A stretch of 48,450 nt of DNA from Flavobacteriaceae bacterium (GCA_024643425.1 JAHEMY010000006.1:4286-52735); one strand, 5' to 3'. Shown: positions 16,257-32,512, counted from the first letter of the stretch. The notes: a model not told the origin generated them from the sequence alone. Made by a program: numbers and translations.

Positions 16257-16295
16257 AAGAACAAGGGGTTGATAGAAAATCAACCCCTTGTTCTT
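16257..16295 (-). terminator. strong terminator of unit B
   Basis: A 17-bp stem (AAGAACAAGGGGTTGAT and its complement) with a 5-nt loop. On the minus strand it runs into TTTTTTAT. It lies 17 nt past the stop of the 1211-residue carrier. Confidence 0.9.
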
Positions 16296-16312
16296 AATTC
16301 AAAAAAATAAAA

Positions 16313-19300
16313 CTATTTTTTTATCACTTTCTTTGTAATGGAGCCATTTTCAGCATCAATTTTAACAAAGTAAACTCCCTTTTTCAAGCTAGATAGGTCA
16401 ATAGAATAGCGATTATTTTCATTTACCACATATTCTGAGATACGTTTCCCAAGAATGTCATACACTTCAATGTTGTGAAGATTGGCATTTGGCGAATAGA
16501 TGGTTAACGAATTACTGGTTGGATTAGGAAACACCTTCACTGAATCTAGGTCATATTCACTGTTGCCGAGGGTTGTGATCTCGCTTTGAAAGATAAGCGT
16601 AAATCGGTTATAAAACGTACCGGGTTCGCTTTCAAAAGAATAATAAGAGGAATCGGTTAGTTCCAGTCGTACAATGGTGTTGGTAAAGTTATCTCTTAGA
16701 TACACATTGGCATTTGATAAATTAACACCTTCGATGTTTTCAATTGAAATTTTATATTCTAGTTTTTCGTCGATTAAGGTTGAATAGCCCAGTGGAATTT
16801 TAACGCCGCTTTCGTAGGTTCCTCGGGTTTGAATTCCTAATTCATGAGGTTGATTTTCCATACCGCTAAAGAAAGAAACAACGGTCGCTAAACGACGGCT
16901 GTCGTATCCAGGATCAAAATCGATGGTGGCTTCCTCTGAAAAAGCTACAAGTGTAGTCGATTGCATTTGATATTCGGCATTTGCAATTTTTAACCAAATA
17001 CGGTCTTTACCATCGGGACGTCTGAAGGTATTGTTGTTGTCGGTACGACGCATGTCATTATTAAACAAAGCGGTACCGGCAGCAGTTGCTTTAAATGCAA
17101 ATCCTTGTCCTGTAGAAATATACTCGTTCGGAGAGTTTCCACCACTTACAGCGGCAATTCCTCCGGAGTTATTGTACATGGAAATATCTTGCATTGAAAA
17201 ATTCATGGAACCGGCTCCGGGTAACGTCGCACTGGGCGGTGTGTTGTGTTCCCAGAAAAAGAGCTCGTCTACCATACTATTTTCAGCGATAAATGCTAAG
17301 GCTGAAATAGCTGAAGGGTAGGGGTTGGCCACCACATTAGGGCTGGAATTCTTATTACCGTTGTAGATTACATCGAAGGTGATGTCACCATTATTTAGTG
17401 TTCCTTCTTTGTAAGTATAGTTATAAGTTCCACCCGGTTGTCCATACCCGGCTTGTGGACGAACAATATAGCCTTCCCCGGGATTAATGGGAGTATTAAA
17501 TCCTTCGTCAATAATGATCCAGTTGTTGTAATTGTCGTCGGCAAAATTCTCTGCACCTGGCATTTGTGCTTCAACTTCTGGATTTGGCACAAATAACGAC
17601 GTGTCGTGGTACAGCACTAAGAATGGATCTACCCATACATCGTCACGAGTTTCAGCCGTCATAGGACTTCCCATCACCATAAAGTCACGAGAGGCTAGGT
17701 TGGGTGTAGTTAAATGTACATTGATGGTTCCATTTTTTGTAACAAAGGCATTGGGGTCTGTTTGGACGACGCTACCTTGGTGTAAAATATCTAGAGTCCC
17801 GTCCACTTGAATATCTCCATCGACATTTATAAACCCACCACTGGTCACGGTAAGCGTTCTGGAAGCATTTACCGTTAAGGAACAAGCCGTAATATCGCCG
17901 TGTGTGCCAGTATTATAATTTCCATTAATAATAACACTATTGTTTAATCCAGGTTGTCCGCTTGGACTCCAAGAACTGCCGTTCCACGTTTTCGTAGCTC
18001 CCGCACATCCGGGAATTTCTGTGATTGATAATTGTACGTTATCTAAGGCTAAATCACTCGCAAATCCATTACCGGTCGTACCAATAAATCGCAGTTTTAT
18101 GGTTTTTCCAACGTAAGTATCTAGATTGACATTTGTTGGAACCCAAGCATTATTATTCACTCCTGTCACAGAGAAAATCGTAACCCATATATTTTCAAAT
18201 TCGCTTATCTGCAATGCAATAATACCTGTATTGGCTCCCCAAGAGTGATAATCGAATGAAAAGTCAGCAGTTTGTGCATTAGTAAAATCAAAACAAGGGC
18301 TTTCCAATATTGCTGTTGCATTCACACCAATTTCACCGGGTGTGCCATTAGTAGATGCTTCGATATAAATGTATTCTGATCCTTCGCTCGCCCCAGAAGG
18401 TCCTGTATTTCCTGAAGGAGTAGCACCTGAGTATCGTATCCAGTCCCCATCGTCGGCCGATTCTTGTAACCAAAGGCCAATACTGCCTTCAAAGCCTTCA
18501 TTGTAATCATAAGTATTTATTGTATTTACACAATTTACTGGTGGTGGTGGTGGTGGTGGATCTCCAATGCGAATATTGTCTATCGCCATATCACTTGTGC
18601 TACCATTACCGGTGGTGGCATCAATACGTAATTTAATGGTTGATCCCGCATAGGGAGTTAGGTCGATAACTGCTGAATTCCAACTATTTCCCTTATTTCC
18701 ACTTTCGGACCATAAAGTTGTCCAAGTAGAACCTCCATTATTACTAGCGGTAAGAGAAAGCGTACCCATAGTTGCACCAAACATATGATAGTCGAAGCTA
18801 ATTTCAGTGGTCTCGTTGGTCGGGATTTCGAAGCATGGAGACCCCATAACCACTCTATTACTAAAGTTGTCAGGACCTAAGTCATCTGATTCAACAAAAG
18901 CGTATAGGGCTCCTTGACTGGGTATCGTAGGTCCAGTGTTCGCAGAAGGAGTAGCAAATCTAGTGCGTATCCAACTATTTCTGATGTTACATGTTACTTC
19001 TTTTTCCCATGATTTTGTTTCAAAATCCATAACATAGGGAAAACTGTTTATTGTAGTACGGCAATGTGGTGTGCTTACAAAAGTATCGTAACTACATTGC
19101 AGCACGTCAATAGGCTCAACATAATTAACATTGGGATACTCCCATAAGTCAAGCGACGGATTTCCTACGGGGTCGGTTGGTTTTTGAACGCGAACAAAGG
19201 AGGCCAATCCGCTATTACCGCTATTAATACATCGGTTATCCCCACCCACACGTTTGGCGCCTTGTAAGGCGGCCATCAGCTTGTCGGCAAGTGTTCCGGT

Positions 19301-19948
19301 AGCGTTGCGAAAGGATGTTTCCATATCATCAAGGATGTCTTGTCGGCCACCACCGCCGGTTGAGGTGTCGAGAATGTTTCCTTGGATGGCATAATACATG
19401 CCAGTGTTAGGGTCGATACCCGTAATATTTCCAGCCCAGTTACCATTGTTTGAACCGGTAAATCCTGCAGTCGTAATGTTGCCACCACCATCGATTCCAA
19501 CAATTCCATATTGACGTGTGGTATTGTTATTATTACAGTCATTGGCTTGCATATAAGCAATAATTTGTGCAGGCGTATCTCCCGCCAACATCCTAGTTCT
19601 TGCCCTGCCCTGATTACAAGACGTGTAAGCCGCTTGGGTGTGTATAGCACCAAGAAGGGTTCCACTTGGGCTAAATATAATATCATTTAAAAAATTGATA
19701 TTCCCCGGATAACAACTTGTCCCAGCCCCACCTATTTCTTGGGTATTTGGGTCGTAGGCTACGATAGAAAAGGTGTCTCCCTCATGGTCCCTGGAGGTGT
19801 CTCTATCTTCCCACGAGTCATCATCATTCTCGATGCTTTTCGATTCGGATTGTGTTTTGTTTGGGTAGATAATCGCAAAAACTGACAACAACATGATTGC
19901 TGGGATGATTTGCCTTAAATTCCTTTTATTTCGGGGGTTAACTTTCAT
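16313..19948 (-). CDS. T9SS-secreted carrier with DUF1028 and two MAM-like domains (unit B)
   Basis: A protein of 1211 residues. The hydrophobic N-terminus (residues 11-29) is probably a signal peptide. A DUF1028 domain follows at about 52-265 (FSIVAYDPNTQEIGGAGTSC, then GIVGIDGGGNITTAGFTG); this family resembles Ntn hydrolases, but its activity is unknown. Two MAM-like jelly-roll domains (about 295-462 and 472-640, with SPCFxx, FDYHMFG and DMAIDNI motifs) are separated by a run of seven prolines. A WNGSSWSPSGQPG segment leads to a large shared module (about 760-1130) and a type-A T9SS sorting domain from about 1135 (VKVFPNPTSNSLTI). Residues 768-1044 are encoded by DNA that looks identical to part of the unit A carrier. 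It is the last gene of unit B, 48 nt after the preceding gene. The domain make-up suggests a surface-anchored binding or hydrolytic protein; the substrate is unknown. Confidence 0.9.
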   Translation of the reverse strand: MKVNPRNKRNLRQIIPAIMLLSVFAIIYPNKTQSESKSIENDDDSWEDRDTSRDHEGDTFSIVAYDPNTQEIGGAGTSCYPGNINFLNDIIFSPSGTLLGAIHTQAAYTSCNQGRARTRMLAGDTPAQIIAYMQANDCNNNNTTRQYGIVGIDGGGNITTAGFTGSNNGNWAGNITGIDPNTGMYYAIQGNILDTSTGGGGRQDILDDMETSFRNATGTLADKLMAALQGAKRVGGDNRCINSGNSGLASFVRVQKPTDPVGNPSLDLWEYPNVNYVEPIDVLQCSYDTFVSTPHCRTTINSFPYVMDFETKSWEKEVTCNIRNSWIRTRFATPSANTGPTIPSQGALYAFVESDDLGPDNFSNRVVMGSPCFEIPTNETTEISFDYHMFGATMGTLSLTASNNGGSTWTTLWSESGNKGNSWNSAVIDLTPYAGSTIKLRIDATTGNGSTSDMAIDNIRIGDPPPPPPPVNCVNTINTYDYNEGFEGSIGLWLQESADDGDWIRYSGATPSGNTGPSGASEGSEYIYIEASTNGTPGEIGVNATAILESPCFDFTNAQTADFSFDYHSWGANTGIIALQISEFENIWVTIFSVTGVNNNAWVPTNVNLDTYVGKTIKLRFIGTTGNGFASDLALDNVQLSITEIPGCAGATKTWNGSSWSPSGQPGLNNSVIINGNYNTGTHGDITACSLTVNASRTLTVTSGGFINVDGDIQVDGTLDILHQGSVVQTDPNAFVTKNGTINVHLTTPNLASRDFMVMGSPMTAETRDDVWVDPFLVLYHDTSLFVPNPEVEAQMPGAENFADDNYNNWIIIDEGFNTPINPGEGYIVRPQAGYGQPGGTYNYTYKEGTLNNGDITFDVIYNGNKNSSPNVVANPYPSAISALAFIAENSMVDELFFWEHNTPPSATLPGAGSMNFSMQDISMYNNSGGIAAVSGGNSPNEYISTGQGFAFKATAAGTALFNNDMRRTDNNNTFRRPDGKDRIWLKIANAEYQMQSTTLVAFSEEATIDFDPGYDSRRLATVVSFFSGMENQPHELGIQTRGTYESGVKIPLGYSTLIDEKLEYKISIENIEGVNLSNANVYLRDNFTNTIVRLELTDSSYYSFESEPGTFYNRFTLIFQSEITTLGNSEYDLDSVKVFPNPTSNSLTIYSPNANLHNIEVYDILGKRISEYVVNENNRYSIDLSSLKKGVYFVKIDAENGSITKKVIKK
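16818..17647 (-). repeat. 830-bp identical stretch shared with 23893..24722
   Basis: Comparing the two carriers at a constant offset of 7075 bp, I find no difference between flanking mismatches at 16817 and 17648. Outside this block the genes quickly become only moderately similar. Both copies have the same orientation and reading frame. Confidence 0.88.
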
Positions 19949-19996
19949 GATAGTAAGTATAGATTGGGAATTGGGGGTGTTGTAATAAAGTTTGGT

Positions 19997-20848
19997 TTAA
20001 AGCTGTTGTAAAAGTGTAATAGTCAAATAGCCATCTTGTGCATTGTCAGTTAAACCGTTATTTCCATTATAAGGCCCTGAACAAATCCCAAAAAATGCAT
20101 ACCCAGTGGTAGCTCCTCCGCAAAAACTAGTTACATTGAGACTATTAGGGTCTACATTTTGATGGTCCCACAGCCTTGCTCGCACCTTTAAATTATAGGT
20201 TGTTCCTTCATAAAGTGTTACAAGGTGAATGAACGTGGTTTGGCGGCCCAAAGCTTGAAAGGCATTGCTGGGGGTTCTCTTTGTATTTGATGAAACTGTA
20301 TTTTCGGCAACTTTTGTACCATCTATTTCTAACATATAAGACCCGTGAACGGTTGCTTCGTAAGATGTGTTTAAATGGTTTGGTGCTGCAATATAGCCCG
20401 TAACATGCAATTCGTATACTCCAGTATAGGGAGCGATAAAGTCTTGGTCTAATCCCGGAATCGTGTAAGTGGTTGTTATATCGGCAGCTCTTACAATTTC
20501 TGTCTGTTCATACTGAGTAGTAAAACCAGCATTGAAAATCTTTTCCCATTGCATCCCATTCCAAAAATAAAAACCAGGGGACACACTATCTTCACCAATA
20601 CCAGAAGTTAAAGTGTTATAAACCCACAATCCTTCAACTGGAGATGTAATAGTAGACACATCATTTCTAGAAGACAATTCCACATTTGGGATCATAAGTC
20701 CTTTATCATCACTGTTAAGCTGAACAATTGCGCCATTTTTAATTGCTAAGCTTCCTGACGAATCTTCACCAATTACAACCTGAGCAGAGGCGTTCATAGA
20801 AACAATTAAAATGATTGCTAAAAACTGAATTATATAGTATTTTTTCAT
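19997..20848 (-). CDS. secreted fibre-like protein, unit B, gene 3
   Basis: A protein of 283 residues. The signal peptide ends at about residue 22 (NASAQ). The N-terminal module is VVIGEDSSGSLAIKNGAIVQ, then GLMIPNVELSS, VEGLWVYNT and SPGFYFWNGMQWEKIF. Next comes a linker (QYEQTEIVRAAD) and a beta-rich domain with DFIAPYTGVYELHVTGY, close in pattern to C1q/TNF-like domains (F.AP..G.Y). The C-terminus ends DAQDGYLTITLLQQL, like the other unit B proteins. It has two cysteines, both in the segment FCGGATTGYAFFGIC, possibly a disulphide. There is no sorting domain. It sits 26 nt after the previous gene and 48 nt before the carrier. Confidence 0.85.
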   Translation of the reverse strand: MKKYYIIQFLAIILIVSMNASAQVVIGEDSSGSLAIKNGAIVQLNSDDKGLMIPNVELSSRNDVSTITSPVEGLWVYNTLTSGIGEDSVSPGFYFWNGMQWEKIFNAGFTTQYEQTEIVRAADITTTYTIPGLDQDFIAPYTGVYELHVTGYIAAPNHLNTSYEATVHGSYMLEIDGTKVAENTVSSNTKRTPSNAFQALGRQTTFIHLVTLYEGTTYNLKVRARLWDHQNVDPNSLNVTSFCGGATTGYAFFGICSGPYNGNNGLTDNAQDGYLTITLLQQL

Positions 20849-20874
20849 GATGCTGAGATTAGATCATTGGTTTT

Positions 20875-22221
20875 TTAAAATTGTTTAATAAGGCTTATAG
20901 TCATTCTTCCGCGTTGCGCATCATTGATACCACTACCAGAGTACCCGCTTGTGTCTCTTCCAAAAGATCCAGTGCCTGTATTGTTTGCAAGCCATTCTCT
21001 TCCTCGAACGGCAAATCTGTAGATGGTTCCGGCCTCTAATTCAATGTTATAAATAATGGTTGCGCTTTGTGCTAGGTTGTTCACTGTTGTGCTCCCGAGG
21101 CGTTTGGACGAAGTGGTAATATATGCTTCCTTTATGGTTGTAGAAATATCTACAGGAGGCGATGGAGGCCCAGCAGTATTGTTTACGGAAATGTTATCTA
21201 TGGCCATATCAGATCTTGAACCACCCCCGATAACGCCATTAAATCTAAGTTGAACACTTCCTCCTGCATAACCCGATAAATCGATACTTTCCGAATACCA
21301 AGAATTACCTTGATTTCCCGACTGGGACCATAACGAGGACCAAGACGCACCGTCATCATCGCTAATTTCCAGGTCAAGAGTTCCCATACTACTACCATAC
21401 ATATGATAGTCGAAATTAATGGATGCCTCTGTCTCTCCTGAGAGGTCAAAGCATGGAGAATTTAAAATTGATTGCTCGTTACTATTGTTACTTGCTTCTA
21501 AATATAAATACCAGCTTCCATCAGAACCTGTACTAGGTCCTGTACTACTGGTAGGAGTTCCTCCGCTATCCCGGATCCAGTCGTTATCATCTCCTGTATC
21601 CTGCGTCCATAATCCGAATGAACTTTCAAAACTTTCACTGTACGGGAAGGTGGAAATTCCACCGGAACAACCTACTGAACCTCCGCCTGCAGACCTTGAA
21701 CCCATGGCAAGACTTATAGAACCTTGGGCTGCACCATCTCCTGATGTGCTTATCAAGTCGCCCGCCGAATAATACCCTTCAACTCTAATTTGATAGGTTC
21801 CACTAAATGGTACCGTAATTTCGCCAGTATCCAGTCCTGGAAGAGTAACATATGTAGTGTTGCTTGTACTTGCGGTTACGGCTGCGGTTTGTTCATATTC
21901 TAAGGTGTAGCCTTGCGTAAAAAAACGACGCCAGGTACTCCCGTCAAAATAGTAAAACCCGGGTGATACCGCGTTACCAGAACTTCCTCCGGTTGCGGTA
22001 TTGTAAACCAATAAACCAGCAGAAGGTGCGGGTGTTATGGTGGTTACGTCATCTGTTCCTGTCAACGCAATCTTAGTCATCAAAAACCCTTTGTCTGTAG
22101 CTGTAATATCAAATACAGATGAAGCTTCTGGGGTAGTTGTGTTCACCCCAACTTGAGCATTTGAGATTAAGGTATTAATCACAATACAGATGCTTGCTAA
22201 AAATATTCGTTTTGAAAGCAT
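20875..22221 (-). CDS. secreted fibre-like protein with inserted MAM domain, unit B, gene 2
   Basis: A protein of 448 residues from the ATG at 22221 (MLSKRIFLAS); the in-frame TTG further upstream adds 11 residues before a normal signal peptide and is unlikely. The N-terminal module (VGVNTTTPEASSVFDIT to VSPGFYYFDGSTWRRF) and the C1q-like domain (ITVPFSGTYQIRVEGYYSAG) match the preceding gene. At about residues 188-350 a whole MAM-like domain (CSGGISTFPYSESFE to SDMAIDNISVNN) is inserted in a loop. The paralogue simply reads through there, and its sequence resumes at TTSSKRLGSTTVNNL. The MAM domain is the same type as the two in the carrier downstream. It ends RGRMTISLIKQF. Confidence 0.87.
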   Translation of the reverse strand: MLSKRIFLASICIVINTLISNAQVGVNTTTPEASSVFDITATDKGFLMTKIALTGTDDVTTITPAPSAGLLVYNTATGGSSGNAVSPGFYYFDGSTWRRFFTQGYTLEYEQTAAVTASTSNTTYVTLPGLDTGEITVPFSGTYQIRVEGYYSAGDLISTSGDGAAQGSISLAMGSRSAGGGSVGCSGGISTFPYSESFESSFGLWTQDTGDDNDWIRDSGGTPTSSTGPSTGSDGSWYLYLEASNNSNEQSILNSPCFDLSGETEASINFDYHMYGSSMGTLDLEISDDDGASWSSLWSQSGNQGNSWYSESIDLSGYAGGSVQLRFNGVIGGGSRSDMAIDNISVNNTAGPPSPPVDISTTIKEAYITTSSKRLGSTTVNNLAQSATIIYNIELEAGTIYRFAVRGREWLANNTGTGSFGRDTSGYSGSGINDAQRGRMTISLIKQF

Positions 22222-22295
22222 AAAAAGTTTTTTTGTTAGTGTTTTTAATATCAATTGATCTGAACTTGGATTCTTCCGTCAGAGCAATACAGTAC

Positions 22296-23120
22296 TTATT
22301 GTTGTTTTAATAATGTGATAGACAAGGATCCTCTGTGCGCATCATTGACTCCACTGGCACCTGGATAGCCACTTGTGTTTTTACCAAATGTTCCAAGATC
22401 AACATTATTTCGAGACCACTCTCTTCCTGATACATAAAATCGGTAAGTATCTAACACGTCAAGGTCAACGGTATATATAATGGTGGTATTTTGGGGTAAA
22501 TTGTTCATGGTGGTACTTCCAATTCTTTTGGAAGTAGAGGTTACATATTGCTCTTTCAAGTTTACTGGGGCACCTGAGTTGGTAACCATGAACAAACTTA
22601 CTGAGGCTTGTCCAACCCCCTCTGATGTTGTGCTAGACAGATTGCCACAGGCATAGGTGGTTTCTACTTTAATGTGATAAGTCCCTGAATACGGCACATT
22701 AATAGTTCCGGTATCAAGTCCTGAAATTTGAGTATAAGTAGAACTAGAACTGTTTGCTACAGTTTCTGAACTTTGATCATATTTTATTCCATAACCTCTA
22801 CTGTATAATCGTTCCCACAAGGCTCCGTTAAAAAAATAGAACCCCGGGGTTACCTGAACGGGAAGCGCGCCAGCTGTTACTTTATTGTATACTAAAAGTC
22901 CAGTAGTCGCATTCGGTGTAATGGTGGTAGTATCGTCTGTTCCGGTGAGTTCAACTCGTGGGATTAAAAAACCACCATTGTTGGAATAAATGTCCAAAAG
23001 GGCTCCAGAAGCGGGATTGTCAGTATTAATACCCACTTGAGTAAAGCCATTTGCCGCTATTAAAAGATGAAAACAAAGGGCTGCGACCTTTATTCTACGT
23101 GAAGTAGAGCTTAGTTTCAT
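22296..23120 (-). CDS. secreted fibre-like protein, unit B, gene 1
   Basis: A protein of 274 residues from the ATG at 23120 (MKLSSTSRRIKVAALCF), which begins a normal signal peptide. An in-frame GTG at 23198 is rejected because it lies in the conserved upstream element. The N-terminal module is VGINTDNPASGALLDIYSN, then GFLIPRVELTGTDDTT, GLLVYN and VTPGFYFFNGALWERLY. The C1q-like domain carries INVPYSGTYHIKVETTYACG and ends RGSLSITLLKQQ. The mature protein has one cysteine (TYACG). It is a close paralogue of the next gene without the MAM insertion, so it shows the uninterrupted form of that fold. Confidence 0.86.
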   Translation of the reverse strand: MKLSSTSRRIKVAALCFHLLIAANGFTQVGINTDNPASGALLDIYSNNGGFLIPRVELTGTDDTTTITPNATTGLLVYNKVTAGALPVQVTPGFYFFNGALWERLYSRGYGIKYDQSSETVANSSSSTYTQISGLDTGTINVPYSGTYHIKVETTYACGNLSSTTSEGVGQASVSLFMVTNSGAPVNLKEQYVTSTSKRIGSTTMNNLPQNTTIIYTVDLDVLDTYRFYVSGREWSRNNVDLGTFGKNTSGYPGASGVNDAHRGSLSITLLKQQ

Positions 23121-23185
23121 AAATAGGTTTTTTAAATTTGGGTATACAATAATAATCAAAAAATTCCTTGAAACACAATTAAAAA

Positions 23186-23240
23186 CGATGAAATGCACTA
23201 TAAATCAATAAAATAAGATAAATCCTACAAAATATATTAT
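23186..23240 (-). promoter_or_regulatory. conserved upstream element of unit B (shared with unit A)
   Basis: The minus strand carries a TATATTTTGTAG-type -7 region, an AT-rich stretch, and then ATAGTGCATTTCATCG. The GTGCATTTCATCG core (23186-23198) ends 66 nt before the first start codon. The same order of parts occurs before unit A at nearly the same distance. Confidence 0.6.
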
Positions 23241-23333
23241 AAATAACAGATTGTTGAAAGAGTTATCTCCTAAATTCAAATGTTCAATTGGAATGCTGCC
23301 AAACGTAAATAGGAGATTTGGAAAGAAATTAAA

Positions 23334-23358
23334 AAAGCAGTGCTTTTAACACTGCTTT
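23334..23358 (-). terminator. terminator of unit A
   Basis: Stem AAAGCAGTG / CACTGCTTT with a 7-nt loop. The minus strand runs on into T-rich sequence. It is 33 nt past the carrier stop and separates units A and B. Confidence 0.8.
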
Positions 23359-23390
23359 CAATAATAAAACACCCAAAATATGTCTTATTT

Positions 23391-26300
23391 CTATTTTTTG
23401 ATCACTTTCTTGGTAACCGAACCACTTTCGGTGTCAATTTTGACAAAGTATACACCGGTTTCTAAACTTGAAAGTTCAATAGTATACCCATGATGTTCCC
23501 CTTGAATATTCTCAGCAAGACGTTTTCCAAGGATGTCATACACTTCAATGTTACGAAGATTAGCATTTGGCGAATAGACAGTTAACGAATTACTGGTTGG
23601 ATTAGGAAACACCATTACCGAATCCAGTTCATTTTCGTCGGGACCAAGGGTAACCTCACTTTGGAAAATAAGTGTGAATCGGTTATAAAACGTACCGGGT
23701 TCGCTTTCGAAAGCGTAATACGAGGAATCCATTTGTTCTAGTAAAACAATGGTATTGGTAAAATTATCTCTTAAAAACACATTGGCATTTGATAAATTAA
23801 CACCTTCGATGTTTTCAATTGAAATTTTATATTCTAGTTTTTCGTCGATCAAGGTTGAATACCCCAGCGGAATTTTAACACCACTTTCGTAAGTTCCTCG
23901 GGTTTGAATTCCTAATTCATGAGGTTGATTTTCCATACCGCTAAAGAAAGAAACAACGGTCGCTAAACGACGGCTGTCGTATCCAGGATCAAAATCGATG
24001 GTGGCTTCCTCTGAAAAAGCTACAAGTGTAGTCGATTGCATTTGATATTCGGCATTTGCAATTTTTAACCAAATACGGTCTTTACCATCGGGACGTCTGA
24101 AGGTATTGTTGTTGTCGGTACGACGCATGTCATTATTAAACAAAGCGGTACCGGCAGCAGTTGCTTTAAATGCAAATCCTTGTCCTGTAGAAATATACTC
24201 GTTCGGAGAGTTTCCACCACTTACAGCGGCAATTCCTCCGGAGTTATTGTACATGGAAATATCTTGCATTGAAAAATTCATGGAACCGGCTCCGGGTAAC
24301 GTCGCACTGGGCGGTGTGTTGTGTTCCCAGAAAAAGAGCTCGTCTACCATACTATTTTCAGCGATAAATGCTAAGGCTGAAATAGCTGAAGGGTAGGGGT
24401 TGGCCACCACATTAGGGCTGGAATTCTTATTACCGTTGTAGATTACATCGAAGGTGATGTCACCATTATTTAGTGTTCCTTCTTTGTAAGTATAGTTATA
24501 AGTTCCACCCGGTTGTCCATACCCGGCTTGTGGACGAACAATATAGCCTTCCCCGGGATTAATGGGAGTATTAAATCCTTCGTCAATAATGATCCAGTTG
24601 TTGTAATTGTCGTCGGCAAAATTCTCTGCACCTGGCATTTGTGCTTCAACTTCTGGATTTGGCACAAATAACGACGTGTCGTGGTACAGCACTAAGAATG
24701 GATCTACCCATACATCGTCACGGGTTTCAGCCGTCATCGGACTTCCCATCACCATAAAGTCACGAGAGGCTAAGTCTGGAGTAGTTAGATTTACATTGAT
24801 CATAGCACCTCCAATTTTATTTACAGTAGCATTAGGGTCAACTTGTACCACACTTCCTTGGTGTGCTACAATTAAGCTCCCGGCAACATTAATATCGCCA
24901 TTGGTTTTAAGGTAGTCACCAGCATTTATGGTTAAAGATGCTGAATTGTTAATAGTACATGTACAGGCATCGATACTTGTATTAGATACGGTGGTGTATG
25001 TACCATCAATAATGGCATTCGATCCAGGGCCAGGAACACCATCACTCCAACTGCCGCCGGAATAAGTGGTTGGGGCGGCGGCTATGGTTACAGTAGAAAC
25101 ACAAGAAGCCTTATTTCCATAGTCGTCTTCTCCTTCCAAGGTAATATTAAAAGTGCCACCAACATCGGCACAGGTGAACGTAGTTTGTCCGGTCAAGGTC
25201 CAATCTACAATTCCGAAGTCGTCGGTAGAGCCATTGTCCAGATCTGTTTCATCGATCGTTGCAGTACCTGTATTTGGATCCAAATAGATGGTCGGACTCT
25301 GGCAAATAATAGTAGGTGGGGTGTTGTCGTAATTTGGATCACGCATAATGAAAAGGCCTCCATCACCACCACTATTGTCATTTCCAAATCCAGTGGTAAA
25401 AATATTTCCACTTTCAAAAAAGGGATAAACATTCCAAGTACCATGAAAACTCGCGGTATTAGAACTAGGATAAGTATCCATAAAAGCAACTTCTGTCATG
25501 CTTGGCGTAGAATCATACAAGCCATTAACTTTCAATACGCGAACACCTGCCGCATAATTAGCTAAATAAAAACGGTTACCCTTTACATAACCATTGTGGT
25601 CTATAGCTGGTGTGCTTCCGTAATATGTATAAAATAAGGAAGGACTATCTAAGTCTTCAAAGTCAAATACTAATGTTCTGGTATTGAAACCATGGTTTTC
25701 TTCATCCACTTCATCTCCAAGAATAAAAAATCGGCGATCTTCAGTGAACCAACCTTGATGGGTGTAATTTACATTGGGATAATTTACTGTATTAATATTA
25801 ACAGGATTGGCTTTATTCGTTACGTCAACAATCACAATTTCGTTTTCATTGGCGCCAATCATTATTTCTTTACCTATATAATCTGGGTCGGGGCCATCGT
25901 AAGTTAGTACTTGTGCATCATGAAAGTAATCACTTCCACCGTATTCACCAACGATTATAGGATTTGTAGGGTTCTGTATATTAACAAATATCGGACCGCC
26001 ATTAGAATTACTACTCCTATTAACCCCAACAATATAAGCAAATCCAGATTCTTCATTAATAACAATATTGTGGGCTCTGCCATCATTCGATCCACCGTCA
26101 CCAATAAATAAATGTGCATCTTCCAATAATATTCTACTGCTAGATCCAGTTCCACTAGGAGTTAATCCTCTAAGTCTAGTTAAATCAAATATTTGAAGAC
26201 CATCCGCGGAAACTTCACTGACTACAAAGGCATGATTACTATATACCTTTACGTCACGCCATAGATTTGAACCACCAGAATGTGAGTCCATACGCCCCAA

Positions 26301-26591
26301 ATAGACTGGATTAATTGGGTCCGTAATGTCTACAAACGCGGTTCCATTATTTAACGCAACTATGGCATATTCATGCCCGTCAAAGTCAGAATCTGTCCAG
26401 CCCCAAGAATCTTGACATTCATAAGCATCAAAATCTGAACTAGGTATATATGATTGTAAAGTAAGTCCCGAACAAGGATAGTCATTATTTGGGCCTCCAC
26501 CTGGAATTACTATAGTTCCTCCAGAACAAGGTGTTTGTGCAATCGCGATCGAAGCACTTAACACAGCTAGAATAAATGTAACTTTTTTCAT
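23391..26591 (-). CDS. T9SS-secreted carrier with choice-of-anchor B / LVIVD domain (unit A)
   Basis: A protein of 1066 residues with a signal peptide at 1-18 (IAIAQ). Residues about 25-425 form a choice-of-anchor B type beta-propeller of LVIVD-like repeats (EYAIVALNNGTAFVDITDP, then NEIVIVDVTNKANPVNI). One HYR/Ig-like domain follows at about 430-505. A GSWSDGVPGPGSNAIIDG segment leads to the large module shared with the unit B carrier, and a T9SS sorting domain begins at about 990 (VMVFPNPTSNSLTVYS). Residues 624-900 come from DNA that looks identical to the unit B carrier. It is the last gene of unit A, 64 nt after the last small gene. It is probably the surface-anchored partner of the six small proteins upstream; that role is inference. 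Confidence 0.9.
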   Translation of the reverse strand: MKKVTFILAVLSASIAIAQTPCSGGTIVIPGGGPNNDYPCSGLTLQSYIPSSDFDAYECQDSWGWTDSDFDGHEYAIVALNNGTAFVDITDPINPVYLGRMDSHSGGSNLWRDVKVYSNHAFVVSEVSADGLQIFDLTRLRGLTPSGTGSSSRILLEDAHLFIGDGGSNDGRAHNIVINEESGFAYIVGVNRSSNSNGGPIFVNIQNPTNPIIVGEYGGSDYFHDAQVLTYDGPDPDYIGKEIMIGANENEIVIVDVTNKANPVNINTVNYPNVNYTHQGWFTEDRRFFILGDEVDEENHGFNTRTLVFDFEDLDSPSLFYTYYGSTPAIDHNGYVKGNRFYLANYAAGVRVLKVNGLYDSTPSMTEVAFMDTYPSSNTASFHGTWNVYPFFESGNIFTTGFGNDNSGGDGGLFIMRDPNYDNTPPTIICQSPTIYLDPNTGTATIDETDLDNGSTDDFGIVDWTLTGQTTFTCADVGGTFNITLEGEDDYGNKASCVSTVTIAAAPTTYSGGSWSDGVPGPGSNAIIDGTYTTVSNTSIDACTCTINNSASLTINAGDYLKTNGDINVAGSLIVAHQGSVVQVDPNATVNKIGGAMINVNLTTPDLASRDFMVMGSPMTAETRDDVWVDPFLVLYHDTSLFVPNPEVEAQMPGAENFADDNYNNWIIIDEGFNTPINPGEGYIVRPQAGYGQPGGTYNYTYKEGTLNNGDITFDVIYNGNKNSSPNVVANPYPSAISALAFIAENSMVDELFFWEHNTPPSATLPGAGSMNFSMQDISMYNNSGGIAAVSGGNSPNEYISTGQGFAFKATAAGTALFNNDMRRTDNNNTFRRPDGKDRIWLKIANAEYQMQSTTLVAFSEEATIDFDPGYDSRRLATVVSFFSGMENQPHELGIQTRGTYESGVKIPLGYSTLIDEKLEYKISIENIEGVNLSNANVFLRDNFTNTIVLLEQMDSSYYAFESEPGTFYNRFTLIFQSEVTLGPDENELDSVMVFPNPTSNSLTVYSPNANLRNIEVYDILGKRLAENIQGEHHGYTIELSSLETGVYFVKIDTESGSVTKKVIKK
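23893..24722 (-). repeat. 830-bp identical stretch shared with 16818..17647
   Basis: Second copy of the identical block, flanked by mismatches at 23892 and 24723. It encodes residues of the shared module such as DFMVMGSPMTAETRDDVW and the region downstream of it. Confidence 0.88.
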
Positions 26592-26655
26592 AAGTAGGTT
26601 TTTTTAAATATGTTTAGCGATAAAAAAGGGCATTTTCTATCGTATATTTTAAAAA

Positions 26656-27495
26656 TTATTCAACTAAATAAGTAAATTCAATATCGCAGGGCAATCCGAT
26701 GCCCACATAGGACATTCCTGTTCCGGAATCTCCATTATTAACAAAATTATCGGATACATATACATCAATTTCAAAACGATAAGGGAATGCAACGCCGGCT
26801 GTTAAGTCAACATACACAATTAAAGAAGTATCATGTCTAAATTGATCAAAATAGGTTCCGCCATTAATATCGTTATTATGAACAGAGTATGCATGTGTAT
26901 AAATATAATAAACATCTGGGCCCAGAGTGATTCTAAAGAATCCTTCCTGTGTTGCCATTGAGGTAGGAAAACCTGGAGCTAGTTCAACTTCACCGGCACC
27001 AAAATTAAAATTTGCTTTAATTCGATAGGTCCCTGTATATTTTGGAGTAAAGGAAGAACTTGCGCCTAATCCATTTACATCAACAAAATCGTCTTGCCAT
27101 GCTGTACTACCTGTGGCAATTCTTTGGCCTATAGGTGATTGTTCAACAATTTCAGAATCTTCTTTGATGTACTGCGTCGTCCATTGAGATCCGTCCCAAG
27201 CATAAATGCCTGGGTATACATCATTACTTCCGTTAGTGGTGGTTGCGGTGTTATATACAACAGTTCCCGCCACTAAATTTCCACCATCCGGATTTAGAAC
27301 GGGAGCCTCTATTAAAGTAGAAGTCAATGCAAATCGTGGGTAAATGATCCCTGCGGTACTATTTTGCATATCGACCAATCCTTTAGGACTAGTTGTAGGA
27401 GTCCCGTTGCTCATCGACACCTGTGCAAAAGAAGAAATGGCAACCAGGAAAAAAATTCCTGAAAATATATTTTTATATATGTAAAGTTCTTTCAT
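26656..27495 (-). CDS. secreted fibre-like protein, unit A, type C' (gene 6)
   Basis: A protein of 279 residues with a signal peptide to about residue 25 (SSFAQ). The N-terminal module is atypical at the start (VSMSNGTPTTSPKGLVDMQ) but then standard: GTVVYNTATTTNGSNDVYPG, YAWDGSQWTTQYIKED. In the C1q-like domain it shares YTGTYRIKANFNFGAGE, MATQEGFFRI, YTHAYSVHN and FRHDTSLIVY with gene 3, so the two are the C members of the duplicated set. The mature protein has one cysteine, in LPCDIEFTYLVE at the C-terminus. It is 13 nt after gene 5. Confidence 0.86.
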   Translation of the reverse strand: MKELYIYKNIFSGIFFLVAISSFAQVSMSNGTPTTSPKGLVDMQNSTAGIIYPRFALTSTLIEAPVLNPDGGNLVAGTVVYNTATTTNGSNDVYPGIYAWDGSQWTTQYIKEDSEIVEQSPIGQRIATGSTAWQDDFVDVNGLGASSSFTPKYTGTYRIKANFNFGAGEVELAPGFPTSMATQEGFFRITLGPDVYYIYTHAYSVHNNDINGGTYFDQFRHDTSLIVYVDLTAGVAFPYRFEIDVYVSDNFVNNGDSGTGMSYVGIGLPCDIEFTYLVE

Positions 27496-27508
27496 GATTT
27501 GGAAGCTT

Positions 27509-28858
27509 TTATTCTCCTATATAGGTAAATTCTATTTGACTGTTTATTTCTTTTCCAACATACCCACGACCCTCTGTTGATGGAGGAGTTGGTGGGCCTG
27601 AAAGCTCGCTGATGACTACATTGTCAACAGATGCACCATTAGCTTTTCCAACATTTATATACTCAAAATTTAAAGTATGCAGTACTCCAGCGACTACAGA
27701 AATAGTTGCGCTGTATGAAGTGTTAGCGTCCAAATTATCAAGCCATACTAAATCTCCTCCAACTTGCGATACTCCATCATGAAGATAAACCCTAAAAGTG
27801 TCATCAGAGTTAGGGGACCTTTCGTCAAATTCGAAATCAAAACTTATGTTTACCGAATTAACTGTCGGTAAGAAACTTATTTCAGCGGTAGCGTTTTGGT
27901 TACAGCTGCTACCATTTCCATTAATAAAAAGGGCATCACCTAAACAATCTGTGCATGTGCCAGCAAAGATGATCCAGCCATCAGTTGACTGATCACCACC
28001 AGTACCACCACCACACCCTATAGAGTTGTTGGTCTGTGTTATAGTATATCCGTTAAAATCTTCATTAATTAAATCAATCAATGTGGGGTCTGTTCCACCA
28101 GATGTGGTTGATCCATTTCCGAGATACCCAGGAGCATCATAAGCATCAAAGGTCAAGGAAAATGGATAGGTAGTCCCGGCAATGAGGTTGACATACGCTG
28201 TATCGTAAGACTCTTTCCAAATCCCTTCAAAATGGGTTCCTCCACTAAGGTAACTAGAATAAGCAGAAAATGCACTTGTCTCAAACGTATAAGGATTTCC
28301 GTTAAATAAAAATTCGAATTGACCTGAAGCCATACTCACAAAGGTGGTGCCATTGGTTTCAGTTTTACCTCCGGCAAAATTTGATTTCACCTCAATGCGA
28401 TAGAGTCCTGAATACTTTGCAGTAAATTCATTATTATCGGCTATTCCTAATCCAGGGATATCTTGTTTTCCTGCATTTGCTTCTGTTCTAAGAACGGAGG
28501 TTTGGTTATACAATTCAGACTGTCTTTTTTTATAATGAACCACCCACTGGCTTCCATCCCAAGTGTAGATACCGGGATAAACATTAGTGTCTGGAATGGT
28601 GCCATTATCTGTTGTATTGGTATTGTATACCACGGTACCCGGAACTATGGCACCCCCTTGAGGGTTTACAACCGGGTCCGGGTCATCTGTCGCTAATAAG
28701 GCAACATTGGGATATACCACTCCCATGGATCCACCACTGTTAAAATCCAAAATTCCTTTGGGGTCGGCGGTGTTAATACCCACTTGTGCCATAATATTAC
28801 TAGCCACAAAGAGGATTATCGCCAAATTCAAACTTATTGAGAAAGTATTTTTTTTCAT
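27509..28858 (-). CDS. secreted fibre-like protein with inserted domain, unit A, type B' (gene 5)
   Basis: A protein of 449 residues from the ATG at 28858 (MKKNTFSISLNLAI); an in-frame GTG three codons upstream is less likely. It is the B' partner of gene 2: both have MGVVYPNV, VVNPQGG, HYKKRQ.ELY.QT and GIWKESY or NIWKESY. A domain of about 160 residues (about 258-421; INEDFNGYTITQTNN to ASVDNVVISEL), jelly-roll-like with four cysteines before NATAEISF, is inserted just before the last strand, which resumes at GRGYVGKEINSQIEFTYIGE. This protein alone lacks the C-terminal cysteine of its five relatives in the unit (NSQIEF instead of PCxxEF). Confidence 0.87.
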   Translation of the reverse strand: MKKNTFSISLNLAIILFVASNIMAQVGINTADPKGILDFNSGGSMGVVYPNVALLATDDPDPVVNPQGGAIVPGTVVYNTNTTDNGTIPDTNVYPGIYTWDGSQWVVHYKKRQSELYNQTSVLRTEANAGKQDIPGLGIADNNEFTAKYSGLYRIEVKSNFAGGKTETNGTTFVSMASGQFEFLFNGNPYTFETSAFSAYSSYLSGGTHFEGIWKESYDTAYVNLIAGTTYPFSLTFDAYDAPGYLGNGSTTSGGTDPTLIDLINEDFNGYTITQTNNSIGCGGGTGGDQSTDGWIIFAGTCTDCLGDALFINGNGSSCNQNATAEISFLPTVNSVNISFDFEFDERSPNSDDTFRVYLHDGVSQVGGDLVWLDNLDANTSYSATISVVAGVLHTLNFEYINVGKANGASVDNVVISELSGPPTPPSTEGRGYVGKEINSQIEFTYIGE

Positions 28859-28885
28859 CGTGATCACTGTAATTCAAAAGATTTT

Positions 28886-29725
28886 TTAGTCTAAATAAAC
28901 AAATTCTACGGTGCAAGGGATATCGCCTCCTAACCATCCCCTTCCAGCAAGAGTATTTCCGTTATCAATAATGCCGGGGGAACTGGTTTGATCGAAACTT
29001 AAACTGAAAGTATAATTAGTTCCAGCAACAAGTTCTTTATACATGACGGTCGTAGTTTGTTCCCAGATATCATAATATTGAGTTCCAGAACCATGTCTTG
29101 CCGCCCAGCTGTAGGCTGGAATTAATTCATCCGGGTCCGAATCAAATGCAAATTTAAAAATCCCTTTTTGAACAGTAACACCAGTTTGTCCGCTAACTAG
29201 GGCAATTTGTCCACTACCCCAATTCACGCTTATTTCAATTTTGTAGGTACCCGTATAGGTAGGGGTAAAAACACTATTTGTAAGACCTGGTATATTTTGG
29301 TAGGATCCGGTTGTAATTGTTCTTAAAGCTCCGGAGGAATTATCTTGTTCGAATATTTGAGCATTCTTTTTAGGAAATTCATTGATCCAATCCACACCAT
29401 CCCACATATAGATACCGGGATAAACACTAAATTCTCCATTACTTGAGGTATTTGTGTTGTACACAACCGTACCGATTGGAATCGGGTCTGCTACGTTATC
29501 TGGATTTACAACAGGAGCTGCAACGTCTGTTCTGGTTAGAGCTACCCTTGGTAACACAAGACCATAATTGTTTGTGCCAGAAAGATCTTTCTCAGCATCA
29601 CTATTTAAATCTAAAACACCGTCCGGAGCTATTGTGCCAATCCCAACTTGACCCAGGGATACAAGGGAAAACATTAGAAAAGCTAAGAAAAGGATATTTC
29701 TTAGTTTAGGGTAAAAACTATTCAT
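28886..29725 (-). CDS. secreted fibre-like protein, unit A, type A' (gene 4)
   Basis: A protein of 279 residues with a signal peptide to about residue 25 (SLVSLGQ). It has VGIGTIAPDGVLDLNSD, then GLVLPRVALTRTD, VVNPDN, PIGTVVYNTNT and YPGIYMWDGVDWINEFPKK. The last block is near-identical to gene 1, which marks this as the A member of the second set. The C1q-like domain has FTPTYTGTYKIEISVNWGSG and ends IPCTVEFVYLD with the only cysteine. A 139-nt gap and a TACATTTG box precede it, so the second A'-B'-C' block may have its own promoter. Confidence 0.86.
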   Translation of the reverse strand: MNSFYPKLRNILFLAFLMFSLVSLGQVGIGTIAPDGVLDLNSDAEKDLSGTNNYGLVLPRVALTRTDVAAPVVNPDNVADPIPIGTVVYNTNTSSNGEFSVYPGIYMWDGVDWINEFPKKNAQIFEQDNSSGALRTITTGSYQNIPGLTNSVFTPTYTGTYKIEISVNWGSGQIALVSGQTGVTVQKGIFKFAFDSDPDELIPAYSWAARHGSGTQYYDIWEQTTTVMYKELVAGTNYTFSLSFDQTSSPGIIDNGNTLAGRGWLGGDIPCTVEFVYLD

Positions 29726-29770
29726 AATTGGGGGCCTTTAATTTATTTTAGGTTAAGCTAGTTCTTCCTA

Positions 29771-29778
29771 CAAATGTA
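29771..29778 (-). promoter_or_regulatory. candidate internal -7 box between the two unit A blocks
   Basis: TACATTTG on the minus strand matches TAnnTTTG, 46 nt before the gene 4 ATG, in the only long gap inside unit A. No convincing -33 TTTG is visible, so the call rests on the -7 box and the gap. Confidence 0.38.
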
Positions 29779-29864
29779 ATAAAATTATTGAATTATTAAT
29801 TTTTTTTTATAAAACCCGTTGATTAACAATGAATTGCTCGTGCAAATTAATTCTTTTCTAAAAT

Positions 29865-30710
29865 TTAGTCCCCTTCTAAATAAGTGAATTCTACAGTGCA
29901 GGGGAGTTCAATTCCTACATGAGTGTTGGCATTTGGATCCATATTGTCATAATCGTTGTTATTTGATACTTGTACATCTATTTGTAAACGAAAAGAATAG
30001 GTCTGTCCTGCAATCAAATCTTCGTATAAAATAAGGGAAGAATCGTGTCTAAAGGTATCATAAATCGTTCCTGGAGAACTTCCTATATGTTCATTAAAAA
30101 CAGAGTAGGAATGAGTATAAATGTTATAATCGGCTCCGTCAAATCGAAAACGGAACCATCCTTCTTGTGTGGCCATACGAATATAATCGTGATTTCCACC
30201 ACCACCAGTAGGAGGAGGATTTATTTCACCCGCACCAAAGTTAAAATTGGCAATAATACGGTAGGTGCCTGAATATTTTGGAGTAAAAGTCGATCCGCTA
30301 CCTAGGCCAGGTACATCGCGCCAACCTCCAGAATATGGTACTCGAAAATCCAATGGGGTTTGAGTAAAAATATCGACGTCTTCTTTGATAAACTGCGTGG
30401 TCCACTGTGAGCCGTCCCAAGCATAGATTCCCGGGTACACGTCATAAGCTCCATTTGTAGTTAAACTAGTGTTGTAAACCACGGTTCCGGGTTCAAGGGG
30501 ATTTCCGGTGGGATTAATTACCGGGTTTGGATCGTTGGTTGCAATCAAGGGTACCCTAGGGTAAACTAATCCTGTGGTGGTATTTAATTGCAAATCTAAA
30601 AGGCCTTTGGGATTATTGGTTCCAACACCTACTTGCGCTAAACCCAGAAAGGATATCATCAAAGCCTTTATTGTTAGCATCGTATATTTTATTTTTTGCT
30701 TCATAGTCAT
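29865..30710 (-). CDS. secreted fibre-like protein, unit A, type C (gene 3)
   Basis: A protein of 281 residues (a second ATG two codons in is equally possible). The signal peptide runs to about residue 25 (SFLGLAQ). The N-terminal module is VGVGTNNPKGLLDLQ to PGIYAWDGSQWTTQFIKED. The C1q-like domain contains FTPKYSGTYRIIANFNFGAG, a Pro/Gly-rich loop (PPPTGGGGN), MATQEGWFRF and FRHDSSLILYEDL. It ends LPCTVEFTYLEGD with the single mature cysteine. It is the C member of the first block, 23 nt after gene 2. Confidence 0.86.
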   Translation of the reverse strand: MTMKQKIKYTMLTIKALMISFLGLAQVGVGTNNPKGLLDLQLNTTTGLVYPRVPLIATNDPNPVINPTGNPLEPGTVVYNTSLTTNGAYDVYPGIYAWDGSQWTTQFIKEDVDIFTQTPLDFRVPYSGGWRDVPGLGSGSTFTPKYSGTYRIIANFNFGAGEINPPPTGGGGNHDYIRMATQEGWFRFRFDGADYNIYTHSYSVFNEHIGSSPGTIYDTFRHDSSLILYEDLIAGQTYSFRLQIDVQVSNNNDYDNMDPNANTHVGIELPCTVEFTYLEGD

Positions 30711-30733
30711 TGTTTTAATTAAAAACCCAACCG

Positions 30734-31549
30734 TTATTCATCCATATAGGTAAATTCTACGGTACACGGAATGTCTGTTCCAATGTACCCCAATCCATCT
30801 CCGGAGTTTCCATCGTTCACAAACCCGGGAGCAGGAGATTGATCAAATTCTAGTGAAAATGAATAGGTTGTATTCGCTGTTAAATTAATATACAGCGTAG
30901 TGTACGATTCCTTCCAGATATTGGTGTAATGGGTTCCGCTATTCACATAGCTGTTATAAATGGAATAGGCATGCGTAATAAAGGTTTTCGGAACTCCGTT
31001 AAATGTAAATCGGAAGGCACCCTCTTGCGCAGCGACATTCACATCTACTCCGTCGACCATTTTACCTCCACCATAATTACCTTTTACAATGATGCGGTAC
31101 AAACCAGAATATTTGGGCGTAAACGTTCTATTGTCGGCCACCCCTAGATTTGGGATATCCTGCCAATCTCCGGGAAAGTCGGAATCGGTTCTTAACTCGG
31201 TAGTTTGTTCGTACAATTCGGCTTGACGTTTTTTATAATGAATGGTCCATTTCGAACCATCCCAAACATAAATTCCGGGATGCACATCGGTAACATTTCC
31301 AGTGGAGGTTGTATTGATGTTATACACGACAGTACCCACCGCCAAGGATCCTCCTTGCGGATTTACCACTGGAAGGGGATTGTCCGTTGCAGTTAATGAT
31401 ACATTTGGATATACAACTCCCATAGTAGAAGAATTAATGTCTAAAAGTCCCGCGGGGGCGCTCGTATTAATCCCTACTTGTGCCTTTGCCATGCTCATCG
31501 TTAAAAGCAGGGCAAATAAAATGTTGTATGTGTTTTTATTGATGTTCAT
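30734..31549 (-). CDS. secreted fibre-like protein, unit A, type B (gene 2)
   Basis: A protein of 271 residues with a signal peptide to about residue 23 (SMAKAQ). The N-terminal module is VGINTSAPAGLLDINSS, then MGVVYPNVSLTATD and PGIYVWDGSKWTIHYKKRQ. The C1q-like domain (FTPKYSGLYRIIVKGNYGGG, NIWKESYTTLYINL) runs without interruption to IPCTVEFTYMDE. It is the uninterrupted B-type relative of gene 5, so it shows where gene 5 acquired its extra domain. It has one mature cysteine and lies 15 nt after gene 1. Confidence 0.86.
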   Translation of the reverse strand: MNINKNTYNILFALLLTMSMAKAQVGINTSAPAGLLDINSSTMGVVYPNVSLTATDNPLPVVNPQGGSLAVGTVVYNINTTSTGNVTDVHPGIYVWDGSKWTIHYKKRQAELYEQTTELRTDSDFPGDWQDIPNLGVADNRTFTPKYSGLYRIIVKGNYGGGKMVDGVDVNVAAQEGAFRFTFNGVPKTFITHAYSIYNSYVNSGTHYTNIWKESYTTLYINLTANTTYSFSLEFDQSPAPGFVNDGNSGDGLGYIGTDIPCTVEFTYMDE

Positions 31550-31564
31550 GACTTTTTGATTTTA

Positions 31565-32389
31565 TTAATCCACATAAACGAATTCAACCGAACAAGGAAT
31601 ATCATAACCTATATAGCCTTTCCCGGTGCCACTATTTCCATTAGAAACAAAGCCTGGGGAGGCTAATTGGTCAAATTGAAGGGTAAAGTTATAAGAGGTT
31701 CCTTTTGTTAAGGTTTGATACATGACCGTGGTGGCTTGTTCCCAAATTAAATAATATTGGGTAGTGCCATAGGTGGAATGAGAGCTAATGGGTACCAAAT
31801 AATCCACTCCGTTGAAGGTAAGTTTAAAAATACCTTTTTGAGATAGCGGGTTGGTCTTCCCACCTGCCAGATTATCGGCATATCCGCCACCATAATTCAC
31901 ACTCAGTTCAATTTTATATCGACCTGTGTATTTTGGAGTGAATGATTGGTTGAGTAATCCAGGAATGGTAACATAACCGCCGGTTGATTGCGTCCGAAAT
32001 TCTGACGACATGTCCTGCTTAAAGATTTCGGCATCTTTTTTTGGGAATTCGTTGATCCAGTCGACTCCATTCCACATATAAATTCCCGGACTTACATCGT
32101 TTAAACCTGTGTATGTGGTGTTGGTGTTATAAACAACGGTGCCAATCGGGAGCGGATCACCTGGGTTATCTGGATTGATAACTGGGGCCGGTACAGTAGC
32201 ATCGGTTAATGCAACGCGTGGCAAAACTAGGCCGTAATATTGATTGACGGGTAAATTTTGGCTGTTCAAATCCAACGCTCCCTCCGGAGTTGAGGTCCCA
32301 ATCCCTACTTGTCCGAAGCTAAACGCAGAAAATAACATTACACCCAAAAACACAAAGAGTTGGATTGTAGTTAAGTATTTTTTTTTCAT
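31565..32389 (-). CDS. secreted fibre-like protein, unit A, type A (gene 1)
   Basis: A protein of 274 residues, first in unit A, with a signal peptide to about residue 26 (SAFSFGQ). The N-terminal module is VGIGTSTPEGALDLNSQ, then GLVLPRVALTDA, PIGTVVYNTNT and GIYMWNGVDWINEFPKK. The C1q-like domain has FTPKYTGRYKIELSVNYGGG and IWEQATTVMYQTL, and ends IPCSVEFVYVD with the only cysteine. Its closest relative in the window is gene 4. The conserved upstream element sits 68 nt before its start. A subunit role in a secreted assembly is inferred from the fold pattern and the repeated gene order. Confidence 0.86.
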   Translation of the reverse strand: MKKKYLTTIQLFVFLGVMLFSAFSFGQVGIGTSTPEGALDLNSQNLPVNQYYGLVLPRVALTDATVPAPVINPDNPGDPLPIGTVVYNTNTTYTGLNDVSPGIYMWNGVDWINEFPKKDAEIFKQDMSSEFRTQSTGGYVTIPGLLNQSFTPKYTGRYKIELSVNYGGGYADNLAGGKTNPLSQKGIFKLTFNGVDYLVPISSHSTYGTTQYYLIWEQATTVMYQTLTKGTSYNFTLQFDQLASPGFVSNGNSGTGKGYIGYDIPCSVEFVYVD

Positions 32390-32456
32390 ACGAGCATTGC
32401 TTTACGAATTACTATGTCAATAATACGCAATAAATCCGATGAAATACAAATATTTT

Positions 32457-32512
32457 CGATGAAATGCACTATCATAAAGAATAAATAAGTTAATTCTTAC
32501 AAAAAATATACA
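32457..32512 (-). promoter_or_regulatory. conserved upstream element of unit A (shared with unit B)
   Basis: Minus strand: TATATTTTTTGTAA, an AT-rich stretch, then ATAGTGCATTTCATCG (core 32457-32469), 68 nt before the first ATG. A second ATTTCATCG follows 20 nt further on, close to two helical turns. Confidence 0.6.

Follow-up and report, generated by a model that had tools for sequence, protein, structure and literature searches.

The window analysed here, a 48,450-nucleotide stretch of a Flavobacteriaceae draft genome (GCA_024643425.1, JAHEMY010000006.1:4286-52735; G000:C191:4286-52735 in our numbering; assembly of 2.74 Mb in 201 contigs, with relatives in the Flavobacteriaceae), carries on its minus strand two gene units, A (32464 to 23333) and B (23213 to 16257). 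We lean, with only slightly more belief than doubt, towards reading them as variants of a single conserved cassette for surface display, in which a trio of C1q-like secreted proteins would be co-exported as a heterotrimer with a carrier of the type IX secretion system (T9SS). The cassette is defined by (i) strict trios of small genes in a fixed order, (ii) duplication and replacement of the trio as a block, (iii) agreement between the type of the trio and the N-terminal head of its carrier, (iv) an upstream operator, and (v) a chromosomal slot.

Trios of small proteins and their T9SS carriers

Unit A runs from an operator through six small secreted genes and an LVIVD carrier to a terminator. 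The operator (32437..32464) reads TTTCATCG-N12-TTTCATCG, with a -7 box of the Bacteroidota type, TATTATTG, after it; in relatives it is conserved ahead of trios at about -73 to -78. The small genes form two trios: (i) A1, comprising position 1 (alpha, p1 clade, a secreted C1q/TNF-like protein of 274 aa; 31565..32389), position 2 (beta, p2 clade, 271 aa, whose predicted structure is described below; 30734..31549), and position 3 (gamma, p3 clade, 281 aa; 29865..30710); and (ii) A2, comprising position 1 (p1 clade, 279 aa; 28886..29725), position 2 (p2 clade, 449 aa, a loop of whose C-terminal domain holds an additional inserted domain; 27509..28858), and position 3 (p3 clade, 279 aa; 26656..27495), the clades being assigned from the tree of small proteins. 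Carrier A (23391..26591) consists of an LVIVD β-propeller of the choice-of-anchor B type, an HYR-like domain, a module shared with carrier B, and a T9SS type A C-terminal sorting domain (CTD), and an intrinsic terminator lies at 23333..23359.

Unit B follows the same plan with three small genes. Its operator (23166..23213) shows TTTTATTG, TTTCATCG and TTTCAAGG in 20-bp steps, followed by TATTATTG; trio B comprises b1 (22296..23120, started at the ATG at 23120 rather than the GTG at 23198), b2 (20875..22221, with a MAM domain inserted between jelly-roll strands), and b3 (19997..20848); and carrier B (16313..19948) combines DUF1028, two MAM/choice-of-anchor J domains, the shared module, and the type A CTD, ahead of an intrinsic terminator of 17 pairs (16257..16295). 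The terminators of the two units have the longest stems, of 17 and 12 pairs, among the 20 terminator-like sites of the region. Profile matches and the terminator scan bear out what the original prediction, made from the sequence alone, had claimed of the unit ends, namely large T9SS carriers that share a long module, differ in their heads, and are followed by a terminator: carrier A matches TIGR04312 (choice_anch_B) at 450.6 bits (cut-off 100), carrier B matches DUF1028 (PF06267) at 87.8 bits (cut-off 26.2), and the type A sorting domain TIGR04183 scores 60.3 bits in carrier A and 62.9 bits in carrier B (cut-off 23). The structural model of carrier A displays a β-propeller at residues ~40-420 (Z 31), further β domains, and then the CTD.

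The nine small proteins of the window share an N-terminal module of ~80 aa (the N-module) and a C-terminal domain of ~165 aa, and profile scans of the window proteins turned up no dedicated Pfam or NCBIfam model for them. The original prediction spoke of 'several' such proteins per unit, which is right as far as it goes but overlooked their strict grouping in threes (six genes as 2 x 3 in unit A, three in unit B), the insertions at position 2, and the common slot. A scan of public genomes recovered 31 loci with full-length or near-full-length relatives in Aequorivita, Ulvibacter, Altibacter, Nonlabens, Patiriisocius, Aureisphaera, and others, nearly all of them three consecutive genes. In a tree of 109 small proteins, built with a quick method, the three positions separate with 5 label changes, compared with a mean of 47 for shuffled labels. 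The A-type subtype I is made of the identical 12 loci in all three position clades, cutting across Aequorivita, Ulvibacter, and Altibacter, which argues that the trio evolves, duplicates, and is replaced as one unit. A doubled trio is seen in 2 of the 33 trio loci, L119 and the window, where unit A holds two A-type trios and unit B a distant B-type trio; A and B trios form separate clades with full support and are old.

A census of 397 sampled Flavobacteriaceae genomes, using a match cut-off of E <= 1e-30 and scoring at most six candidates per genome, returned 46 genomes with a match. The annotated census clusters outside the window genome comprise 30 trios and 2 duos, including (i) 20 A-type trios, all 20 in the order p1-p2-p3 and 18 of them followed by an LVIVD carrier, one carrier being split in two frames; (ii) 8 trios and 2 duos of the B-type, with a DUF1028+MAM carrier next in 10/10 and a differing b2/b3 order at two loci (L219 and L223); and (iii) 2 V-type trios, each followed by a carrier with a Vps10 propeller. 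A carrier follows the trio or duo at 30 of these 32 loci and its head agrees with the trio type in 30/30, the coupling of A, B, and V trios with the carrier head holding throughout the census carriers.

Proteins longer than 330 aa account for 8 of the 36 at position 2 versus 0 of the 72 at positions 1 and 3. In each window unit one member, always that at position 2, holds an inserted domain, which is MAM in trio B and a weakly PA14-like domain in trio A2; because both the domains and the loops that accommodate them differ, such insertions arose at least twice.

The carriers are set apart by their overall architecture. A type A CTD is present in 22/22 tested carriers and a TIGR04312 match in 20/22. 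Among the census genomes, 11 of the 13 DUF1028 open reading frames (ORFs) longer than 560 aa adjoin a trio or duo, the remaining DUF1028 ORFs being mostly solo and short (about 230-530 aa). Most choice-of-anchor B ORFs likewise stand alone, at about 400-690 aa and with no trio; those that adjoin trios are of the ~1060-aa form, which has the HYR-like domain and the shared module, and among the 60 nearest relatives choice-of-anchor B proteins exceeding 1000 aa occur only in two genomes, beside a trio in both.

The shared module itself spans ~1.5 kb at 91% identity (23622-25079 in carrier A, 16544-17998 in carrier B) and includes an identical tract of 830 nt with diverged flanks, attributable to either recent gene conversion or a draft-assembly error. 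Its near-identity, once taken to indicate two parallel designs, reflects this tract and not an ancient parallelism. As a signature of the system the module was rejected: relatives at about 30-36% identity are widespread without small genes, and it is generic enough to occur on an M36 metalloprotease of the window genome. The expectation of a modular surface system thus stands in the census counts of carriers and matching heads but not in the module as its marker; the neighbourhood of the module is often devoid of small genes, whereas the whole carrier tracks the trio, as in the long DUF1028 ORFs. A tree of module plus CTD groups by genus irrespective of trio subtype, and the heads of the A. 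todarodis and CIP111184 carriers group with other genera, together with their trios. Close module pairs are found in the window (A/B, 88%) and between two neighbours in genome G098 (90%); concerted evolution of the module in every genome proved only partly true, G098 A and B not being close. The window genome encodes dozens of CTD-bearing proteins. The metalloprotease (L068; G000:C131:10396-14988) is a fungalysin with the module and CTD of the carriers, and an operator near-match lies upstream of it at C131:15304.

The chromosomal slot and replacement of trios

Both units lie in a single slot, 14169-32688. Its upstream flank (32688..35738, plus strand), the same at most trio loci, comprises an aminocyclopropane-carboxylate (ACC)-deaminase-like gene, a LysM/glucosaminidase-like gene, and hemL; its downstream flank (11643..14169) comprises a 112-aa gene (13831-14169, plus strand) and hutU, encoding urocanate hydratase (11643-13700, minus strand). 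Most A- and B-type cassettes are found between the ACC-deaminase-like gene, with LysM and hemL beyond it, and the small gene plus hutU, and intact cassettes also occur beyond the slot at L140, L216, and L230. The same slot in Flavobacterium and Mesoflavibacter holds other N-module and T9SS proteins, and the ACC deaminase-to-hutU interval is a family-wide hotspot for surface proteins.

Comparison of A. soesokkakensis (L146) with Aequorivita UBA3180 (L133) discloses flanks near the cassette at 77-94% identity and carriers at 81%, alongside trio proteins at 51, 37, and 42%; the corresponding trio values for a pair of the same subtype, L127/L133, are 93, 81, and 95%. These identity contrasts, together with the module and head trees, argue that the trio is exchanged, in some cases along with the head, while module and flanks stay resident. 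Part of the pattern would also follow from an ancient double trio that was lost differentially.

Further proteins of related build occupy the slot. L151-L155 (Flavobacterium and Mesoflavibacter) have N-module proteins there, and several Flavobacterium have giant T9SS proteins of ~1760-1870 aa. N-module proteins of 700-850 aa, candidate fibre proteins of the slot, stand directly upstream of many trios (L123:7232-9703, L126:7538-9754, L128, L130, L135, L146, and L148); no Pfam domain was found in that of L123 (7232-9703). In the window, two secreted proteins downstream of unit B (14204-14965 and 15237-15971, minus strand) combine the trio-type N-terminal module with a different C-terminal part, and a T9SS protein of 3322 aa with several HYR-like repeats lies just beyond the slot (170-10138, plus strand).

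Predicted fold, export and competing explanations

The AlphaFold model of the trio A1 position 2 protein, built with 63 family sequences, has a mean predicted local distance difference test (pLDDT) score of 91.2, and its C-terminal domain, residues 107-271, displays a C1q/TNF jelly roll. Comparison of the model with PDB structures gives (i) the C-terminal domain of Pgp3 (Z 11.0 over 122 residues), (ii) the 4-1BB ligand, 4-1BBL (Z 10.0), (iii) the lectins BC2L-C (Z 9.9) and PLTL (Z 9.8), and (iv) Caprin-2 C1q (Z 8.8), BxpB (Z 8.8), and BclA (Z 8.4); Foldseek matches include EDA, FasL, adiponectin, C1q heads, and collagen X NC1. By predicted fold, the small proteins belong to the C1q/TNF superfamily, whose members of solved structure are trimers. 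At the sequence level, no C1q model matched the C-terminal domain in the Pfam, NCBIfam, and PHROG scans, a family-profile search against solved structures gave no match, and no collagen-like Gly-X-Y stalk was found in the small proteins, the N-terminal part being a conserved non-collagenous module (VGIGTxxPxGxLD ... PGIYxWDGxxW). The earlier designation 'C1q-like' is accordingly sound for the predicted fold but does not extend to a Pfam C1q match or a collagen stalk: the proteins are C1q-like in fold and not C1q family members by sequence. A phage tail-fibre origin was considered and rejected, the PHROG matches being weak, with no phage genes noticed nearby; the structural resemblance to phage proteins stems from the shared jelly roll.

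What defines a T9SS substrate is its CTD. No match to the type A sorting domain was obtained in the small proteins scanned, in line with the original prediction. A signal peptide followed by Gln is found in 107 of the 109 small proteins and a lipobox in 0/109; this pattern fits the Q-rule for Bacteroidetes signal peptides (PMC5837995) and points to export by the Sec pathway.

That three ancient paralogues are retained together and are duplicated or replaced en bloc suggests an α-β-γ heterotrimer. Under the proposed mechanism, the trio and one T9SS carrier would be made from one operon; the Sec-exported α, β, and γ chains would assemble into a heterotrimer, as the C1q A, B, and C chains do, and would dock in the periplasm on the N-terminal head of the carrier (LVIVD propeller, DUF1028-MAM, or Vps10 propeller); the trimer would cross the outer membrane via T9SS together with the carrier, whose type A CTD would hold it at the surface. 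There it may bind a ligand, either glycan or protein, and in some trios the β subunit would bear additional domains, MAM among them. Exchanging the whole trio, at times together with the head, at one constant site would alter what the cell binds. On these grounds we take the cassette for a probable surface binding device of three parts, exchangeable and so far undescribed. The bolder proposal of a bacterial C1q counterpart, in which obligate heterotrimers hitch-hike on a matched T9SS carrier and whole trios are switched between lineages at a fixed slot, is put forward more tentatively, as a possibility that we would not yet rely on.

Several observations weigh against co-export of a heterotrimer with the carrier. 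No described precedent for T9SS co-export of a partner without a CTD was found in the open-access papers searched. Two B-type loci are duos, and some relatives stand alone (L232, L233, and the fourth gene of L123, with further solos at L235 and L236), so three chains are not always needed. No carrier adjoins the trio loci L120, L122, L138, and L142 or the census loci L203 and L222. The position hidden Markov models derive partly from species that the census also covers. Finally, a strict coupling of trio subtype with carrier head inside the A-type was rejected, with exceptions in Aequorivita (L141, L143, and L146).

Alternatively, each of the three small proteins could be a homotrimeric adhesin or lectin with a ligand of its own; they would form no heterotrimer, and co-expression would be their only tie to the T9SS surface protein. 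BC2L-C, PLTL, BclA, and phage fibre heads of this fold are homotrimers as far as known, and solo members and duos occur; nevertheless, independent adhesins would be expected to come and go singly, whereas single-gene gain or loss is rare, it is the whole trio, its order kept, that is duplicated or replaced, and one set of 12 loci makes up subtype I at all three positions, so that we regard this explanation as unlikely. Less probable still, the small proteins would be periplasmic assembly or quality-control partners of the carrier head that are never displayed. Such a role would suit Sec signal peptides accompanied by neither CTD nor lipobox, as well as the match between trio type and head type, but it sits poorly with a fold that is that of exposed recognition domains, with extra domains such as MAM confined to position 2, with divergence and block replacement that resemble a surface under diversifying selection, and with four named trio loci that have no carrier.

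Mere co-localisation, with the slot as a hotspot of unrelated surface proteins and units A and B alike only through recent duplication, we consider very improbable. In its favour, fibre-like and T9SS proteins of other kinds occupy the slot in Flavobacterium, the module that the carriers share is generic, and carriers A and B are identical over 830 nt, but the cassette stays intact beyond the slot (L140, L216, and L230), the A and B trios fall in old, fully supported separate clades, further sampled genomes contain the B-type trio together with its DUF1028 carrier, and the 30/30 match between trio type and head already disfavoured this account.

Compared to complement C1q, the trio shares the predicted jelly roll of the globular head and three ancient paralogous chains kept together, but it is bacterial, shows neither the Pfam C1q match nor the collagen stalk, and is associated with a T9SS carrier, its heterotrimeric state being inferred. 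The N-terminal domain of BC2L-C from Burkholderia cenocepacia and PLTL from Photorhabdus laumondii are bacterial recognition proteins of the same fold (Z 9.8-9.9), to which the trio is likened by fold only; they are, as far as known, single-gene homotrimers with no trio and no carrier. BclA and BxpB/ExsF of the Bacillus exosporium (Z 8.3-8.8) also share the fold and lie on the surface of a bacterial structure, which is however a spore surface and not T9SS-dependent, and they are single homotrimeric proteins as far as known. On the carrier side, carrier A is a clear member of the choice-of-anchor B (LVIVD) T9SS proteins of TIGR04312, and the head of carrier B is the family domain of the DUF1028 proteins (PF06267), but most members of the first family are solo and most ORFs of the second solo and short.

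The cassette therefore combines known kinds, T9SS surface proteins and bacterial C1q/TNF-fold proteins. As a system it agrees with the earlier view that it is undescribed, no description having been found in the open-access papers searched. To our knowledge, the C1q/TNF-type heterotrimer design is otherwise known from animals, and we know of none that is bacterial; there is a real chance that the trio is the first bacterial C1q-like heterotrimer, which, if true, would also make it the first bacterial one of the C1q/TNF type. A conserved operon in which three C1q-folded proteins without a CTD accompany a CTD carrier makes T9SS export of multi-protein complexes directly testable, and culturable strains exist in Aequorivita, Ulvibacter, Altibacter, and Nonlabens. 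Because trios are swapped in a fixed slot, closely related marine Flavobacteriaceae can serve as a natural experiment on changes in surface binding specificity, and the cassette gives context to families now named hypothetical, DUF1028, or choice-of-anchor B.

The upstream repeat and its wider occurrence

The upstream elements of the two units, which the original prediction took to be the same, agree at 78% over 55 nt and comprise a direct repeat, TTTYATCG-N12-TTTYATCG, with a 20-bp period ahead of the promoter. The repeat lies mostly 71-83 nt 5' of the ATG, just upstream of a TAnnNTTG box, and is conserved across genera. Among 34 trio upstream regions, a step of 20 bp is found in 23 with <=3 mismatches, other steps giving 0-12; the same step leads in 23 further loci (15/23), the runner-up being 12 at 11 bp. 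LytTR-type operators follow a rule of two 9-bp direct repeats with a 21-bp step and a family consensus; the direct repeat here has a 20-bp step and a different core, TTTYATCG.

The idea that the element is a feature of these two operons alone was rejected. In the window genome, nine repeat sites occur at <=2 mismatches, intergenic as far as ORFs were called, among them sites upstream of a lipoprotein, upstream of a leucine-rich repeat (LRR) protein, and near an extracytoplasmic function (ECF) sigma gene; in relatives, the repeat is also found upstream of other exported proteins and of an ECF sigma gene. This distribution marks a wider regulon, whose extent is not defined because the enrichment at <=1 mismatch across 16 genomes is only about 57 sites compared with 28 for the reversed control. 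The ECF sigma gene is conserved and carries the operator-like repeat upstream in three genomes (G000:C19:13822; L175 in G012; L177 in G069), which makes a regulatory link possible.

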